DNA from: an uncultured Schlesneria sp.
GTDB taxonomy: Bacteria; Planctomycetota; Planctomycetia; Planctomycetales; Planctomycetaceae
Length of the DNA: 64,000 nucleotides
Assembly: GCA_903840265.1 (NCBI GenBank)
Contig: CAIMFH010000190.1
Location: forward strand, 124,001-188,000
Direction of reading: 5' to 3'
In this document: positions 46,994 through 53,050 of the stretch, in pieces
How the letters are laid out: the number at the start of each line of letters is the position of its first letter
Position numbering within the stretch: the stretch's first letter is position 1
Made by a program: the position numbers and the translations under genes
Notes under the pieces: model-generated
The model's database searches: none
What the model was told of the DNA's origin: nothing
The model's input: only the letters and a program-made list of their open reading frames with translations

Positions 46994-48118
46994 ATGAAAG
47001 CCGTTGCCGTTCTGCCTGGTAAGCCAAACAGCGTTCACCTCCGCGAGATCCCTCAGCCCAAGCTGAACGATCAGCCACATCCGCATGTGACGAAGATCCC
47101 CGAAGGCCGCGCCGTGCTGGTGAAAACCCTGCAAATCGGTGTCGATGCGACCGACCGCGAAATCAACGAAGCCCTCTACGGCAACGCCCCTCCCGGTGGT
47201 GAGCACCTGGTCATCGGCCACGAGAGCTTCGGTCAGGTCGTCGAGATCGGCGACAAAGTCACCGAGTTCAAAGTCGGCGACTACGTTTCCTGCACCGTTC
47301 GCCGACCGGGCGGGTCGCTGTTTGACAAAATCGGCCGCAACGACATCACCAGCGAAGAAGTCTACTACGAACGCGGCATCAACCTGTGCCACGGTTATAT
47401 GACCGAGTACTTCGTCGACGACGCCGAATACATGGTCCACGTTCCCGTCAAACTGAAACACCTGGGTGTCCTCTCCGAGCCCGCCAGCGTCTGCGCCAAG
47501 GCATTGGAGCAGGTGTTTCTGGCTCAGCAGCGCCTACAGGTCTGGAAGCCGAAGCTGGCCTTCGTCATGGGATCGGGCCAGATCGGCTTGCTCGCAACCA
47601 TGATGCTGCGCCTGCGCGGCCTGGACGTTTACACCCTGGCCACCAAGCCAGGTCCGCATCGCAAGTCCGAGATCGCTGAAGCCTACGGTGCGAAATACAT
47701 TAGTACCAAGCAGACCTCATTGCATGACTTGGCGAAGAAAGTCGGTCGCCCCGACATCATCTTCGAATGCACCGGCAACGCCGAAGCCTGCTTCCGATCG
47801 ATGGAAGTCCTGAACCTGAACGGAGCCCTTTGCTGGACCAGCATCACCGGCGGCAGTCACAAGGTCGAGATCGATGCCGCCAAGATCAACCTCGAATGGG
47901 TGTTGGGCAACAAGCTGCTGGTCTCCAGCGTGAACGGCAACCGCAGCCACTTCGAGCAAGGGATTCAAGCCCTGTCGCACGGCGAACTGACTTATCCCGG
48001 TGTGACCGAACGAATCCTGACCAACCCTGTCGATGGCTTGGACAACTACAAAGAAATGATGCGACTGCTGGTCGAAGACAAAGACGCCCTGAAGGTCTTC
48101 GTCAACGTCTCGAAGTAG
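46994..48118 (+). CDS. Glucose 1-dehydrogenase, zinc MDR family
   Basis: A 374-residue MDR oxidoreductase. [12 protein letters not shown] and [12 protein letters not shown] are catalytic-zinc region motifs; [17 protein letters not shown] is the nucleotide-binding motif. At the first zinc ligand position the sequence is [10 protein letters not shown], with Asp where Cys is usual; the same change is known from haloarchaeal glucose dehydrogenases. It oxidises glucose (or a close sugar) with NADP. C-terminus and length match the archaeal-type GlcDH group. No gluconate pathway gene is nearby, and the ribosome site is weak. Confidence 0.85.
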
Positions 48119-48309: not shown

Positions 48310-50229
48310 GTGACTGATGGACCGCGTGATCCAACTGCGCTCGATACAGCCTCGCCGAATGCACACTCGGCGGGACGCGAGGGTGCGCTGCAGGAACTCG
48401 GCGGCCTGGTTCAAAAGCTGGCGACCTCCTTGGCGAAGCTGGAGAGCGCCGCGGTCGCCCTGCAGTTGCCGGCCCTCGCAGGTCGTGAGTGGTTCGACCT
48501 GCTGCAGCGAAAGCTACTCCCGCAACTTCAAGACGGTGCCTATCTGATTGTGGCGGTCGTCGGCGGCACGAACATCGGCAAGAGCGTCGTGTTCAACCAC
48601 ATCGCGGGCTTTCGAGCGAGCGCCAGCAGCCCACTAGCCTCAGGCACCAAACACCCCGTTTGTCTGGTCCCCGAACAGTTCACCGAGACCCACGATCTGC
48701 AGTTGCTCTTCCCTTCGTTTGAACTGCGTCCCTGGGCGGGCGGCGACGAAGCTCTACAAAGCATCCCCGAGAACTGTCTGTTTTGGCGCTCGCACGAACG
48801 AGTCCCCGACAACTTGGTGATCCTCGACACTCCCGATGTCGATAGCGATGCTCCCATCAACTGGCAACGAGCCGACGCCGTTCGCCAGGCGGCGGATGTG
48901 CTAGTCGCCGTGCTGACTCAGCAAAAATACAACGATGCCGCGGTGAAACAGTTCTTTCGCAAAGCGGCAACCGAAGACAAAGCCGCGATCATCGTCTTCA
49001 ATCAGGTCGAACTCCCCGACGACGAAGAGTACTGGCCCGTCTGGCTAAACACCTTCTGCAGCGAAACCGGCCTGAAGCCCGAATACGTCTACCTCGCCCC
49101 GAACAATCGCAAAGCGGCCGAGGCGATCGCCCTCGAGTTCGAAGAACGAGAATGGCAGGGAACGACGGGGCCACAGTTGACGCAACGTGGTTCACTTTCA
49201 GAAGTCCTCTCACGACTGCGGTTCGCCGAGATCAAACTGCGAACGCTACGCGGGTCGCTGCAGTTCGTCCTCGACAGCCACAGCGGAGCCCCCGCTTACC
49301 TGGAACAGATTCGTTCGCGAGGCCAGCAGTTTCGCGATGCTGCCGGAGTTTTTCTGCGACGCAGCATGGTCCAGAACGCCGATTGGCCCACGCCGCCAAA
49401 TTCGCTGATCATCAATGACATGTGGGCCTGGTGGCGCAACCATCGCGAAGCCTGGACCGCCGGTATTCACGGCTTCTACGGACGCATCGGCGGTGCCGTG
49501 CGAACCGGCTGGCAGGCAGTTCGCACACGTCTCGGACACACCGCTGTCGAGCCCATCAGTGCGTATCGCAAGCAGGAGTGGGCCGCGATCGTGCGAGTGC
49601 TGCAGCAACTGTACGAGCAGTTGCACATCATCACCACGCTCAACAACCCTCTACTCACGGCGCGATTGAATCACTTGCTCTCGGGAACCTCATGCGAAGC
49701 ACTGCTAAGTTGCCTGCAGCAAGAGCACGACCAGTTCGACTTCGACGCATTGATCCACGAACTTGTCAGCACCGAAATGGAATGGCTGCGGACCGAGCGT
49801 CAACCACTGTTTGATCTGCTACGAAAAGTGGATGGAGCGACAGCAGTATTCCGCCCAGTCTTCACCGTGGGATTCGCTCTGAGCGGCGGTGTCGGGGCGG
49901 AGCACTTTCTGGTAGACGCTGCGACTCACACACTGACCCACATGGCCGTTGATGCCTCGGCCGTCGCAGCGACGACGGTCGCCGGTGAAGCGGCTGTGGA
50001 TGCGGCGACGGGAATGTTGGGACAGGCCAAAGCCTCGCTGCTGCGACTGCAGGGAAAGTTCACTCAACGTCGCGAAGTCTGGCTCCTGGATCAGTTGAAG
50101 CAACACTTGCTGGGTGGACTGCTGGCCGAACTGGAAGCGGGCGCCACCGTCGCCGACTCCCCCTCCTTCCATGAAGTGGCAGGATTGTTACAAGACCTGA
50201 CGCGCCGAATGGGAGAGATCGAGTCATGA
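48310..50229 (+). CDS. Dynamin-like GTPase A (50S-binding/Era-like GTPase domain)
   Basis: A 639-residue protein. The G1 P-loop is VVGGTNIGKSVVFN; G3 reads DTPDVDSD with Asp in place of the usual Gly; G4 is a weak FNQVE in place of NKxD. Helical regions follow, and a hydrophobic, Ala-rich segment (about 520-570: GFALSGGVGAEHFL, DASAVAATTVAGEAAV) could insert in membrane. The stop overlaps the ATG of the second GTPase (ATGA), so the pair is coupled. Tandem GTPases of this kind recall bacterial dynamin-like pairs, in which one partner recruits the other. The GTG start at 48310 has no good ribosome site. Confidence 0.72.
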   Translation: MTDGPRDPTALDTASPNAHSAGREGALQELGGLVQKLATSLAKLESAAVALQLPALAGREWFDLLQRKLLPQLQDGAYLIVAVVGGTNIGKSVVFNHIAGFRASASSPLASGTKHPVCLVPEQFTETHDLQLLFPSFELRPWAGGDEALQSIPENCLFWRSHERVPDNLVILDTPDVDSDAPINWQRADAVRQAADVLVAVLTQQKYNDAAVKQFFRKAATEDKAAIIVFNQVELPDDEEYWPVWLNTFCSETGLKPEYVYLAPNNRKAAEAIALEFEEREWQGTTGPQLTQRGSLSEVLSRLRFAEIKLRTLRGSLQFVLDSHSGAPAYLEQIRSRGQQFRDAAGVFLRRSMVQNADWPTPPNSLIINDMWAWWRNHREAWTAGIHGFYGRIGGAVRTGWQAVRTRLGHTAVEPISAYRKQEWAAIVRVLQQLYEQLHIITTLNNPLLTARLNHLLSGTSCEALLSCLQQEHDQFDFDALIHELVSTEMEWLRTERQPLFDLLRKVDGATAVFRPVFTVGFALSGGVGAEHFLVDAATHTLTHMAVDASAVAATTVAGEAAVDAATGMLGQAKASLLRLQGKFTQRREVWLLDQLKQHLLGGLLAELEAGATVADSPSFHEVAGLLQDLTRRMGEIES

Positions 50230-52016
50230 CGACAGAATTGGCTCAACTCGAATTGCTGGCGCATATCGACGAACTGGTCACTCAGTTATCGACGTGGTCC
50301 GCAGCACCTTCCGCATGGGAGACCGTCAGTCATGGCAAGTCTCTGGTGAAGCGGCTGCTGCAACGGATCGAACCGCTGCGCGCCCGCGTCGAAGCCCCGC
50401 TGGTCGTCGCCACGTTTGGCGGCACGGGTGTCGGTAAGAGTTCGCTGGTCAACGCGTTGATCGGCGAAGAAGTGACGATGGCCGGTCGACAGCGACCGAC
50501 AACAACCAACCCGATCGTACTGGCGCATCCGCAGACGGACCTGTCAGCCTATGACTTGCCGTTGGCCGACCTGAAAGTCGTCACTCGCGATGTTCCGCTG
50601 TTGCGAGACATTGTGCTGATCGATTGTCCCGATCCAGACACCACTGAAGGCGAAACTGCAGAGAGTAACCTCGCCAGGCTGCATCGCCTGCTCCCGTATT
50701 GTGACGTCCTGCTGTATGTCAGTACTCAGCAAAAGTACCGCTCGGCCAAAGTCAGCGATGAGCTATTGCAAGCCGCGAGCGGCTGCCGGTTAGTGTTCGT
50801 GCAGACTCACGCCGATCTTGATGAAGACATTCGCGACGACTGGCGCAAGCAACTGAGCGCGAAGTACTCGGTCAACGACCTGTTCTTCGTCGATTCCAAA
50901 CAAGCCATTCAAGAACAGCGGTCTGGAGTCAGGCCGACAGGTGAGTTCGGTCGATTGATCGACCTGCTGTTCCGAGAGCTATCGGCAGCACAACGCGTGC
51001 GTATTCGGCGAGCCAATCTGCTGGGACTGGTTCACGAAGTGGTCGAACGGGCTCGTGACACGATTGCCGGGAATGCCGCAGCCGTCGAACAGCTTGAGCA
51101 GACGCTGGCCTATCAACGCAAGCACGCCACCGAGCGCATGGCCGCTCGACTGCAGGACGAATTGCTGGTCAGTCGCGGCTTGTGGGAACAACGACTGCTC
51201 GGTCAGGTCACTCAGTTGTGGGGCTACAGTCCCTTCGCTTCGGTCTTGCGGCTGTGGCATAGCCAAGCCGCGCTGCTGGCGTCCTACACATTGATGCGAG
51301 CGAAGTCGACTGCCCAGATGGCCCTCGTCGGCGCGTTCCACGGGTCGCGCTGGCTTGCTTCACGATCCAAATCCAGCGAGGCCGATCGAAGACTGGAAGA
51401 TGTCGCAACGCTCAGTCTGAGTGACGCGGATCTTCGCGAAGCTCAACTGGTGATCGCCGGACATGTTCATACGGCACGTCTGCAGCGTTCGATGTTGATG
51501 GATCAATCCTTCGATCGACTGCGACAAGCAGCGGCCGGTGTGCAGGACGAATTCATCACGGATGCCGCTCGACGAATCGACGATCTGATCCTGGAGACAG
51601 CGCGGCGGCATTCGCACTGGTTCACACGGTTTCGTTTCGAAATCCTGTTCGCCTGCTTGCCCGCATTTTTGCTCTATCGAGTCGGTCGCAATTTCTTCTA
51701 CGACACCTTCTGGCTGGGCCAGCCGCATCTGGAAGCGAACTTCTACATTCCGGCGGCGCTGTTCCTGGTGTTGTGGTCCGCCTTGCTGGTGATGATGTTC
51801 ACGGCTCGACTGCGCAGCGGCCTGACGCGGCGAGTCCAGGAACTCGCCAGTGAATTGGCCGCAGCCAAAATGGGGGCCGGCTTGTTCCCCGAAATAGAAC
51901 ATGACTGTCGACAGTTCAGCGAAGAAAGAAATCGACTGGAGGCATTTCTGATGAAGATCGATTCGATTCGCAGCCAATACACCGGCACCAGCGAACTGGG
52001 TTCGGTGAAGGCGTAA
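50226..52016 (+). CDS. Dynamin-like GTPase B with C-terminal transmembrane pair
   Basis: A 596-residue partner. G1 is FGGTGVGKSSLVNAL; G3 is DCPDPDT, again with Asp for Gly; the base-recognition motif is VQTHADLD in place of NKxD. A long helical region (about 250-480) is followed by two hydrophobic helices (LFACLPAFLLYRVG; FYIPAALFLVLWSALLVMM) near the end, so it is a membrane-bound GTPase. The ATG overlaps the first GTPase, and a TAATG overlap links it to the symporter gene, making a three-gene unit. GGAG ten bases upstream. Confidence 0.75.
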   Translation: MTTELAQLELLAHIDELVTQLSTWSAAPSAWETVSHGKSLVKRLLQRIEPLRARVEAPLVVATFGGTGVGKSSLVNALIGEEVTMAGRQRPTTTNPIVLAHPQTDLSAYDLPLADLKVVTRDVPLLRDIVLIDCPDPDTTEGETAESNLARLHRLLPYCDVLLYVSTQQKYRSAKVSDELLQAASGCRLVFVQTHADLDEDIRDDWRKQLSAKYSVNDLFFVDSKQAIQEQRSGVRPTGEFGRLIDLLFRELSAAQRVRIRRANLLGLVHEVVERARDTIAGNAAAVEQLEQTLAYQRKHATERMAARLQDELLVSRGLWEQRLLGQVTQLWGYSPFASVLRLWHSQAALLASYTLMRAKSTAQMALVGAFHGSRWLASRSKSSEADRRLEDVATLSLSDADLREAQLVIAGHVHTARLQRSMLMDQSFDRLRQAAAGVQDEFITDAARRIDDLILETARRHSHWFTRFRFEILFACLPAFLLYRVGRNFFYDTFWLGQPHLEANFYIPAALFLVLWSALLVMMFTARLRSGLTRRVQELASELAAAKMGAGLFPEIEHDCRQFSEERNRLEAFLMKIDSIRSQYTGTSELGSVKA

Positions 52017-53050
52017 TGTCGATACCAAGTACGAACAACGGTCAGCCCTCCTCCATGCGATGGATTGTTCAATCATGGTTTCTGCTGACGCTATTGATCG
52101 TGCTTCCCGGCGGAATGGGTTACGGATTACTGGCCAGCAATGAATGGCGACAAGCGATCTCGGGTCGAATCCAGCCAGCTCCTACGACGATCGCCATTTT
52201 GTTTCTGATGGCGTTCAGCTTAGACAGCAGTCGCCTGCGGGATGCGTTTCGAACGCCCTTCCCCGTTATTTGGGGAACGGTGGTCAACATCGGCCTGCTC
52301 CCGCTGATCGCGTGGCCAGTAACGGTGTGGTTCTCATTGCCCGACTTTGCGCTGGGGTTAATGATTGCCGCGGTCGTCCCTTGCACTCTGGCCACGGCCT
52401 CGGTGTCGACGAGACAGGCCAAGGGGAACGATGCGATTTCACTTCTGATTACGTTGGTCACCAATCTCGCCTCGGTCTTCCTGACACCGCTGTGGCTGAA
52501 GTGGACGATCTCAATGGAAGCGGATATCGACCCGTGGCCGGTCATCGGCAACCTGGCCGTCACCGTCCTGCTACCGACAATCGTCGGCCAAGTCTCTCGG
52601 TTCGTACCGCTACTGGGGCCGATCGCAAAGGCGTACCGTTTTCAAATCGGTATTCTGGCACAGTGCCTGGTGTTGCTGGTCGTCTTCAAAGCGGCAATCG
52701 ATGCCGGTGGTCGACTGCAGGAGCAGGATGTCTGGCCAGCAGGATTCGAATTCGTGGCACTCGTGCTGGCCTGCACGGGAGTGCATACGGCCGCGATGTT
52801 AGTAGCCCACGTGGGCGGACGCCTCTCGGGCATCGCTCGCGAAGATCGAATCGCGACACTGTTTGCTGGAAGTCAGAAGACGCTTCCAGTGGGCTTATTG
52901 GTGGCGGCCATGCCCGCGATCACTCATGGACGCAGCCTGCCGTTCATCACCTTTCCGATACTAATCTTTCACGCCTGCCAGTTGCTAATGGATTCCGCGA
53001 TTGCGGATCGGCTGGCCAGTCGCCATCAAAAGCCGAACGCCCCAGCCTGA
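52016..53050 (+). CDS. Bile acid:sodium symporter family (BASS) transporter
   Basis: A 344-residue protein with about ten transmembrane helices (SWFLLTLLIVLPGGMG; TTIAILFLMAFSLD; LGLMIAAVVPCTLATASVS; ISLLITLVTNLASVF; GSQKTLPVGLLVA). PCTLATASVSTRQAKGNDAI in helix 4 and ASVF fit the crossover region of the fold. The family moves organic anions with sodium. Its ATG overlaps the stop of GTPase B (TAATG). The stop codon is inside the stem of the terminator just after. Confidence 0.87.
   Translation: MSIPSTNNGQPSSMRWIVQSWFLLTLLIVLPGGMGYGLLASNEWRQAISGRIQPAPTTIAILFLMAFSLDSSRLRDAFRTPFPVIWGTVVNIGLLPLIAWPVTVWFSLPDFALGLMIAAVVPCTLATASVSTRQAKGNDAISLLITLVTNLASVFLTPLWLKWTISMEADIDPWPVIGNLAVTVLLPTIVGQVSRFVPLLGPIAKAYRFQIGILAQCLVLLVVFKAAIDAGGRLQEQDVWPAGFEFVALVLACTGVHTAAMLVAHVGGRLSGIAREDRIATLFAGSQKTLPVGLLVAAMPAITHGRSLPFITFPILIFHACQLLMDSAIADRLASRHQKPNAPA

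Follow-up and report, generated by a model that had tools for sequence, protein, structure and literature searches.

A pair of predicted dynamin-like GTPases with a modified switch II in planctomycetes

Two overlapping GTPase genes and their motifs

The stretch of DNA analysed here (the window) comprises 64,000 nucleotides of an uncultured Schlesneria sp. of the Planctomycetaceae (assembly GCA_903840265.1, contig CAIMFH010000190.1, positions 124,001 to 188,000 of the forward strand). Our subject is a pair of overlapping genes within it, encoding two GTPases, GtpA and GtpB, which are predicted to be dynamin-like and which both carry an unusual switch II (G3) motif. The elements of the pair, in window coordinates, are the following.

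48310..50229, + strand: GtpA, first predicted dynamin-like GTPase; GTG start, 639 aa; G1 GGTNIGKS, G3 DTPDVDS, motif TQQKYND, G4 position NQVE
48826..48846, + strand: G3 of GtpA, DTPDVDS, residues 173-179
50226..50229, + strand: ATGA start/stop overlap of GtpA and GtpB
50226..52016, + strand: GtpB, second predicted dynamin-like GTPase; 596 aa; G1 GGTGVGKS, G3 DCPDPDT, motif TQQKYRS, G4 position THAD; C-terminal hydrophobic segment
50622..50642, + strand: G3 of GtpB, DCPDPDT, residues 133-139
51747..51803, + strand: strongest hydrophobic segment of GtpB, residues 508-526, within model helix 504-549 and preceded by helix 465-494

The two reading frames, their coordinates, the ATGA overlap and a TAATG junction to a symporter gene downstream stand as they were given in a preliminary description, which had been made from the DNA letters. 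GtpB is 98% identical to its best named relative.

In both window proteins DxPD is found where DxxG would be expected, as the preliminary description had pointed out. D-x-P-D-x-D is invariant in 58/58 GtpA and 63/63 GtpB homologues (non-redundant proteins of 540 aa or more with E < 1e-60), and so are Gx4GK[ST] and the lysine of the TQQKY motif that follows D-x-P-D-x-D. The canonical GTPase signature (DxxG in G3 and [NT]KxD in G4) is thus absent from all 121 homologues. Outside the class, DxPD is present in all 30 proteins of 15 pairs, KY being present in 23 of them; these pairs come from 15 regions of 14 genomes that were chosen for having two close matches (G187 and G227 also qualified and were left out). 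In the set of domains used for our tree, the position in question is Asp in 60/60 first- and second-gene rows vs Gly in 10/10 control GTPase domains. In other words, DxPD is a hallmark of the family and not a chance substitution, and the suggestion that the shared change marks a distinct family is upheld. It would seem from this family that a switch II with Asp in place of the usual Gly can be conserved in dynamin-like proteins.

The G4 motif behaves differently. Neither window protein has NKxD, in line with the preliminary description; taken as a trait of the whole family, however, the altered G4 does not hold. The G4 position mostly reads NQ[VC]x in GtpA, with Asp in 7/58 homologues, and [TS]HAD in GtpB, with Asp in 47/63. 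In the distant rows (families f3, f4, f7 and f8 where named as first or second, other classes and the actinobacterial type), [NT]KxD occurs in 16/24 second genes, for example as NKWD, vs 2/22 first genes. This argues that the loss of G4 is secondary and unequal between the partners. The G4 change is therefore lineage-specific, and the family points to a tendency for guanine reading to be lost from one partner and preserved in the other.

It could be supposed that DxPD has made pseudo-GTPases of both proteins, that is, nucleotide-locked scaffolds which bind GTP without hydrolysing it. Such a view would fit the replacement of the DxxG glycine in every member checked and the scarcity of NKxD in distant first genes. 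However, none of the 12 rows of the GTPase-domain profile alignment departs from the P-loop GxxxxGKS or the G2 Thr, and this invariance, together with the [NT]KxD of most distant second genes, argues for nucleotide use having been kept. We consider the pseudo-GTPase explanation rather unlikely.

The genome of the window also holds a further GTPase matching Dynamin_N, which has the canonical DTPG together with SKID and adjoins a polysaccharide-export-like gene (L182, G000:C116, 263-1960). A near copy of this arrangement lies on a different contig (L183, G000:C62).

Predicted fold, membrane segments and ancestry

AlphaFold models were built for GtpA and GtpB singly, from 40 and 79 sequences, respectively, with pLDDT of 76.4 for GtpA and 78.5 for GtpB. 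In both models a P-loop GTPase domain is combined with a long helical bundle of the mitofusin type, to which helices from both chain ends contribute. Compared with the PDB (VIA), the GtpB model matched MFN1 (5yew, Z 24.2, 3.9 A, 309 aligned) and Fzo1 (9kfe, Z 24.0, 3.1 A, 296 aligned), and further IniA (Z 19.0), SynDLP (17.9), EHD (17.2), BDLP (17.0, with a root-mean-square deviation (rmsd) of 37.7) and Era (16.1 over 168 residues). The GtpA model likewise matched Fzo1 (Z 24.1, 4.2 A, 331 aligned) and MFN1 (Z 22.6, 4.6 A, 325 aligned), followed by EHD (16.5), SynDLP (14.4) and Era (13.0 over 165 residues). In Foldseek searches BDLP was the top match of both models (3e-12 for GtpB, 3e-8 for GtpA), with IniA (8e-12) and Cj-DLP (6e-10) next for GtpB. 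Supporting this picture at the level of domain profiles is Dynamin_N of Pfam, which GtpB matches above the cut-off (29.3 bits) and which at E <= 0.001 is found in 79/79 GtpB and 11/40 GtpA relatives. Since the models match Fzo1 and mitofusin (Z 22.6-24.2) well above Era (13-16), and since Era, Der and MnmE form a branch of their own in our tree, the preliminary designation of the pair as dynamin-like holds: judged by predicted fold, GtpA and GtpB are dynamin-like proteins (DLPs).

The tree, which comprised 70 GTPase domains and from which the trait column had been removed, also bears on whether the two proteins are instead GTPases of ribosome assembly, like Era/EngA, that carry a helical extension. 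MMR_HSR1 is above its Pfam cut-off in both proteins and their sequence matches in the PDB are mostly to Era and Der, as such an origin would lead one to expect. However, these matches lie mostly within the P-loop region, the branch of Era, Der and MnmE is set apart with a support of 99/98, and the models follow mitofusin and Fzo1 beyond the GTPase domain. With DxPD instead of DxxG in addition, we reject Era/EngA membership, and this explanation seems to us hardly tenable. The preliminary description had named it as one outcome that would speak against its reading of the pair. Era, Der, MnmE and YfjP served as comparators in the phylogeny; CrfC was left out because it was misaligned. YfjP groups with the non-Era rows as a very long branch.

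The same tree points to an early separation of the two partners. The labels first and second gene require three changes each, compared with 22.6 and 23.1 in shuffles, and the strays are mostly long branches. None of three groups, all the DxPD rows, all the first genes and all the second genes, came out as an exact clade, because several long branches, YfjP among them, stray; monophyly was not rejected for any of the three either (p 0.355, 0.261 and 0.179, respectively). A late duplication giving rise to GtpA and GtpB within the Planctomycetaceae-type rows was rejected (approximately unbiased test, p 0.007). Going by these sequence relationships, the first and second genes are old paralogues, forming two lineages that are separated almost cleanly.

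As to membrane attachment, a hydrophobic segment beyond residue 250 is present in 79/79 GtpB proteins, and 16/40 GtpA relatives have a hydrophobic segment. At a cut of 1.6 there is one such segment in GtpB of the window and two or more in 38/79 GtpB. Membrane parts at the C-terminal ends had been ascribed to both proteins; a clear hydrophobic segment is seen there in GtpB (residues 508-526) and not in GtpA of the window.

Taken together, we estimate at roughly 0.75 the probability that GtpA and GtpB belong together as subunits of a bacterial DLP pair, which would form a membrane-remodelling hetero-oligomer at the inner membrane and work with a modified switch II. Several observations count against this interpretation. 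GtpA stays below the Dynamin_N cut-off (19.8 vs 27 bits) and, in the window, lacks a clear membrane segment (top hydropathy 1.52, below the cut of 1.6). Confidence in the models, which are predictions only, is middling (pTM 0.65 and 0.67); their matches have low TM-scores when whole chains are compared (0.18-0.52) and in many cases a large rmsd. With IniA (Z 12.9) and Cj-DLP (12.3) the GtpA model scores only as well as with GTPase-only proteins (12-13.5), and its match to the EHD ATPase is higher. In the hhalign profile comparison the helical halves of distant relatives find no match, with probabilities of at most 5%, near those of reversed controls (the best pair, GtpB and the f3 second gene, reaches 5%); the distant homology thus rests on the GTPase domain, the gene order and the anchor. 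Partners are also sorted unclearly by hhalign, GtpA scoring 98.7 with the second gene of f3 and 98.4 with its first gene. Finally, the GTPase-domain profile used for the wide search (A8) was built from 12 rows of both partners, all of them DxPD, which favours the finding of DxPD proteins.

The pair may be set beside several known systems. Mitofusin/Fzo1 and cyanobacterial BDLP share with it the GTPase domain, the helices from both chain ends and the long bundle, all as predicted, and the hydrophobic part of GtpB likewise lies near the C-terminal end. They differ in that GtpA and GtpB have DxPDxD and come as two paralogues; the switch II of mitofusin and BDLP is DxPG. Cj-DLP1/2 of Campylobacter and mycobacterial IniA/IniC are likewise not known to have DxPD in switch II. 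Their DLP genes lie side by side, as here, and their structural matches are clear for GtpB and weak for GtpA; neither system was among the sequence matches of GtpA and GtpB in the PDB searches. Both are thought to work as heteromers, according to passages of PMC6104087 and PMC6715688. Escherichia coli CrfC (YjdA/RdcA) and YfjP are P-loop GTPases whose matches with the family profile are weak (E 2e-9 and 6e-9); CrfC differs in its DTPG, accompanied by NKFD, and YfjP, with 287 aa and DLPG, represents a type (about 290 aa, DLPG) to which the pair does not conform. The weak PADLOC matches of LeoA/LeoBC to GtpB (E 3e-4 and 1e-3) take in the N-terminal and P-loop part only. In the open-licence PMC literature we found no paper on the planctomycete pair, and a search by motif words was likewise empty.

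Gene order, neighbours and distribution

In 42 of 80 named loci the two genes share a strand, with GtpA located upstream of GtpB at a distance of no more than about 0.6 kb; nine of the 38 others have upstream flanks shorter than 2 kb. Wherever the genes were seen adjacent, A precedes B. In many Planctomycetaceae the pair has been split apart, yet both genes are retained, and in the single-contig genomes G003 (1.85 and 6.64 Mb) and G018 they are far from each other. Within the family of the window's host, GtpB is present in 58 of 61 genomes (own included), GtpA in 58 when fragments are counted and both in 55, several of the misses being incomplete assemblies. In G010 (L043, G010:C19), a smaller genome of the host's genus, stops and frame breaks interrupt both GtpA and GtpB, as though they had been lost jointly, although an assembly error is possible.

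The window pair is flanked by the following genes.

46994..48118, + strand: upstream sugar/alcohol dehydrogenase (Glu_dehyd_C), a neighbour in 4/80 loci, also in L054 and L085
52016..53050, + strand: SBF-like (PF13593) gene of a BASS-type transporter, 344 aa, joined to GtpB by TAATG; a neighbour in few lineages

The preliminary description had linked the pair to this transporter and proposed to examine whether the order of the three genes is conserved. It is not: the SBF gene adjoins the pair in 3/80 loci (some with short downstream flanks). An SBF homologue (E <= 1e-20) was found in 16/40 genomes and adjoins GtpB in three of these 16. A transporter-coupled unit of three genes is therefore rejected, and what remains of the proposed order is that of the two GTPases wherever they are adjacent. 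No further conserved neighbours were identified when clusters were compared without annotation, the commonest cluster after that of the GTPases occurring in 14/81 loci.

Beyond the family, 104 of 148 class genomes (at least 90% complete) have a match at 1e-15, and 101 of these have two or more. In the phylum sample 77/149 genomes match at 1e-8; the match is better than 1e-20 in 30, and 27 of these have a second at 3.3e-20 or better. The distribution is patchy, and one family (f5) is mostly negative, with one match and at least nine genomes without. One genome, G180, carries two separate DxPD pairs (L304 and L305). Other planctomycete classes also contain solo DLPs of about 580 aa, of which five were picked from the weaker matches (L314-L318, four of them from one family code); with GEYN[AS]GKS and DTPGTNS, these are a separate DLP family.

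Proposed mechanism and possible roles

If GtpA and GtpB are indeed subunits of one DLP, they might assemble as a hetero-oligomer at the cytoplasmic side of the inner membrane, with GtpB anchored by its C-terminal hydrophobic part. GtpB, which mostly keeps the Asp of G4 (THAD here, [NT]KxD in many distant second genes), would still read guanine, whereas in its partner GtpA base specificity would be weak or lost. With Asp for Gly in switch II, and the KY motif that follows, the contact to the gamma-phosphate usually made by the Gly amide may be replaced. Hydrolysis would probably be slow in each single subunit and be completed across the A-B interface, and the nucleotide state could thereby be coupled to the bending or tethering of membranes.

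FtsZ (TIGR00065) was above cut-off in 0/99 genomes, own included, while 13/14 controls were positive; a short match below cut-off was seen in G040. Any role in division would thus be independent of FtsZ, and the pair is probably, as far as its predicted structure goes, a candidate for membrane remodelling in bacteria lacking this usual division protein. An indispensable role in all planctomycetes of the class is argued against by the patchy presence there and the broken copies in G010.

The pair could instead be a system for membrane repair or tethering under stress, as has been speculated for Bacillus subtilis DynA and Cj-DLP1/2, and not a division factor at all. Its patchiness in class and phylum, the broken genes of G010 and the absence of conserved neighbours beyond the pair would suit this role, and so would Cj-DLP1/2, described in parts of PMC6104087 as a tethering tetramer with a speculated repair role. 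However, the presence of both genes in most genomes of one family suggests something more basic. We regard a stress role as possible, at clearly less than even odds.

A different possibility is that the pair is the planctomycete counterpart of DynA/DynB of Streptomyces and acts in cytokinesis, at the budding neck or septum, without FtsZ. With tblastn we found adjacent DLP pairs in Nonomuraea gerenzanensis (L184) and in a gut scaffold labelled as phage. The Nonomuraea pair has the gene order of the window and DxPD in both proteins; its second protein has hydrophobic segments at 519-537 and 558-576, and a weaker one at 354-372. In BLASTP, the first gene is matched by GtpA at 29% over 219 aa (E 9e-11), the second by GtpB at 36% over 127 aa (E 2e-11). 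Second genes of the actinobacterial type are placed next to a second gene in our tree (89/84) and their first genes next to a first gene (96/33); neither grouping is strong. DynA and DynB are vnz_12110 and vnz_12105, neighbours by locus tag, in passages of PMC6428758, and DynB is described in parts of PMC8748795 as having two transmembrane segments and interacting with DynA and with divisome proteins. By description, then, the layout is like that of the Nonomuraea pair, which we infer to be the DynA/DynB counterpart. The lack of FtsZ above cut-off would also be in keeping with division by other means. However, the BLASTP cross matches are nearly as good (2e-8 and 7e-10). In profile comparison with the actinobacterial-type pair the partners are sorted just as unclearly: GtpB reaches 98.3 against the second gene and 98.5 against the first, and GtpA 98.3 against the first, compared with 97.2 against the second. 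DynA/DynB, moreover, are described with the FtsZ ring, which was not found in the planctomycete hosts, and f5 mostly lacks the genes. A cytokinetic counterpart of DynA/DynB therefore seems to us doubtful.

It is tempting to go one step further and to speculate that an ancient two-paralogue branch of dynamins, having DxPDxD and usually KY, is the scission or neck-constricting machine of many FtsZ-less planctomycetes, its actinobacterial form having become the FtsZ-associated DynA/DynB. We think this improbable. If it were true, the acidic DxPDxD would be a second way of building the dynamin switch, in which hydrolysis is finished only across the A-B interface.

Returning to the reading of GtpA and GtpB as a membrane-remodelling DLP pair, it bears on how planctomycetes divide without FtsZ: a widely kept two-subunit pair is a concrete candidate, one that could be probed by deletion and localisation in Planctopirus limnophila. 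For this species a transposon essentiality data set exists, the main text of which does not mention dynamin or GTPase (PMC10632474).

Some of the records matched deserve a remark. The Nonomuraea sequence (NZ_LT559118.1) is an 11.85 Mb record of a plasmid collection and probably a chromosome. The 10 kb record labelled Bacteriophage sp. (L185, MT837334.1) resembles, by eye, a fragment of an actinobacterial chromosome with a DLP pair and peptidase-like and SSB-like frames. A dynamin family protein on a conjugative plasmid of Burkholderia cenocepacia (L186, 3434-5539), near a gene annotated as MutS, matches GtpB weakly (E 1e-5).

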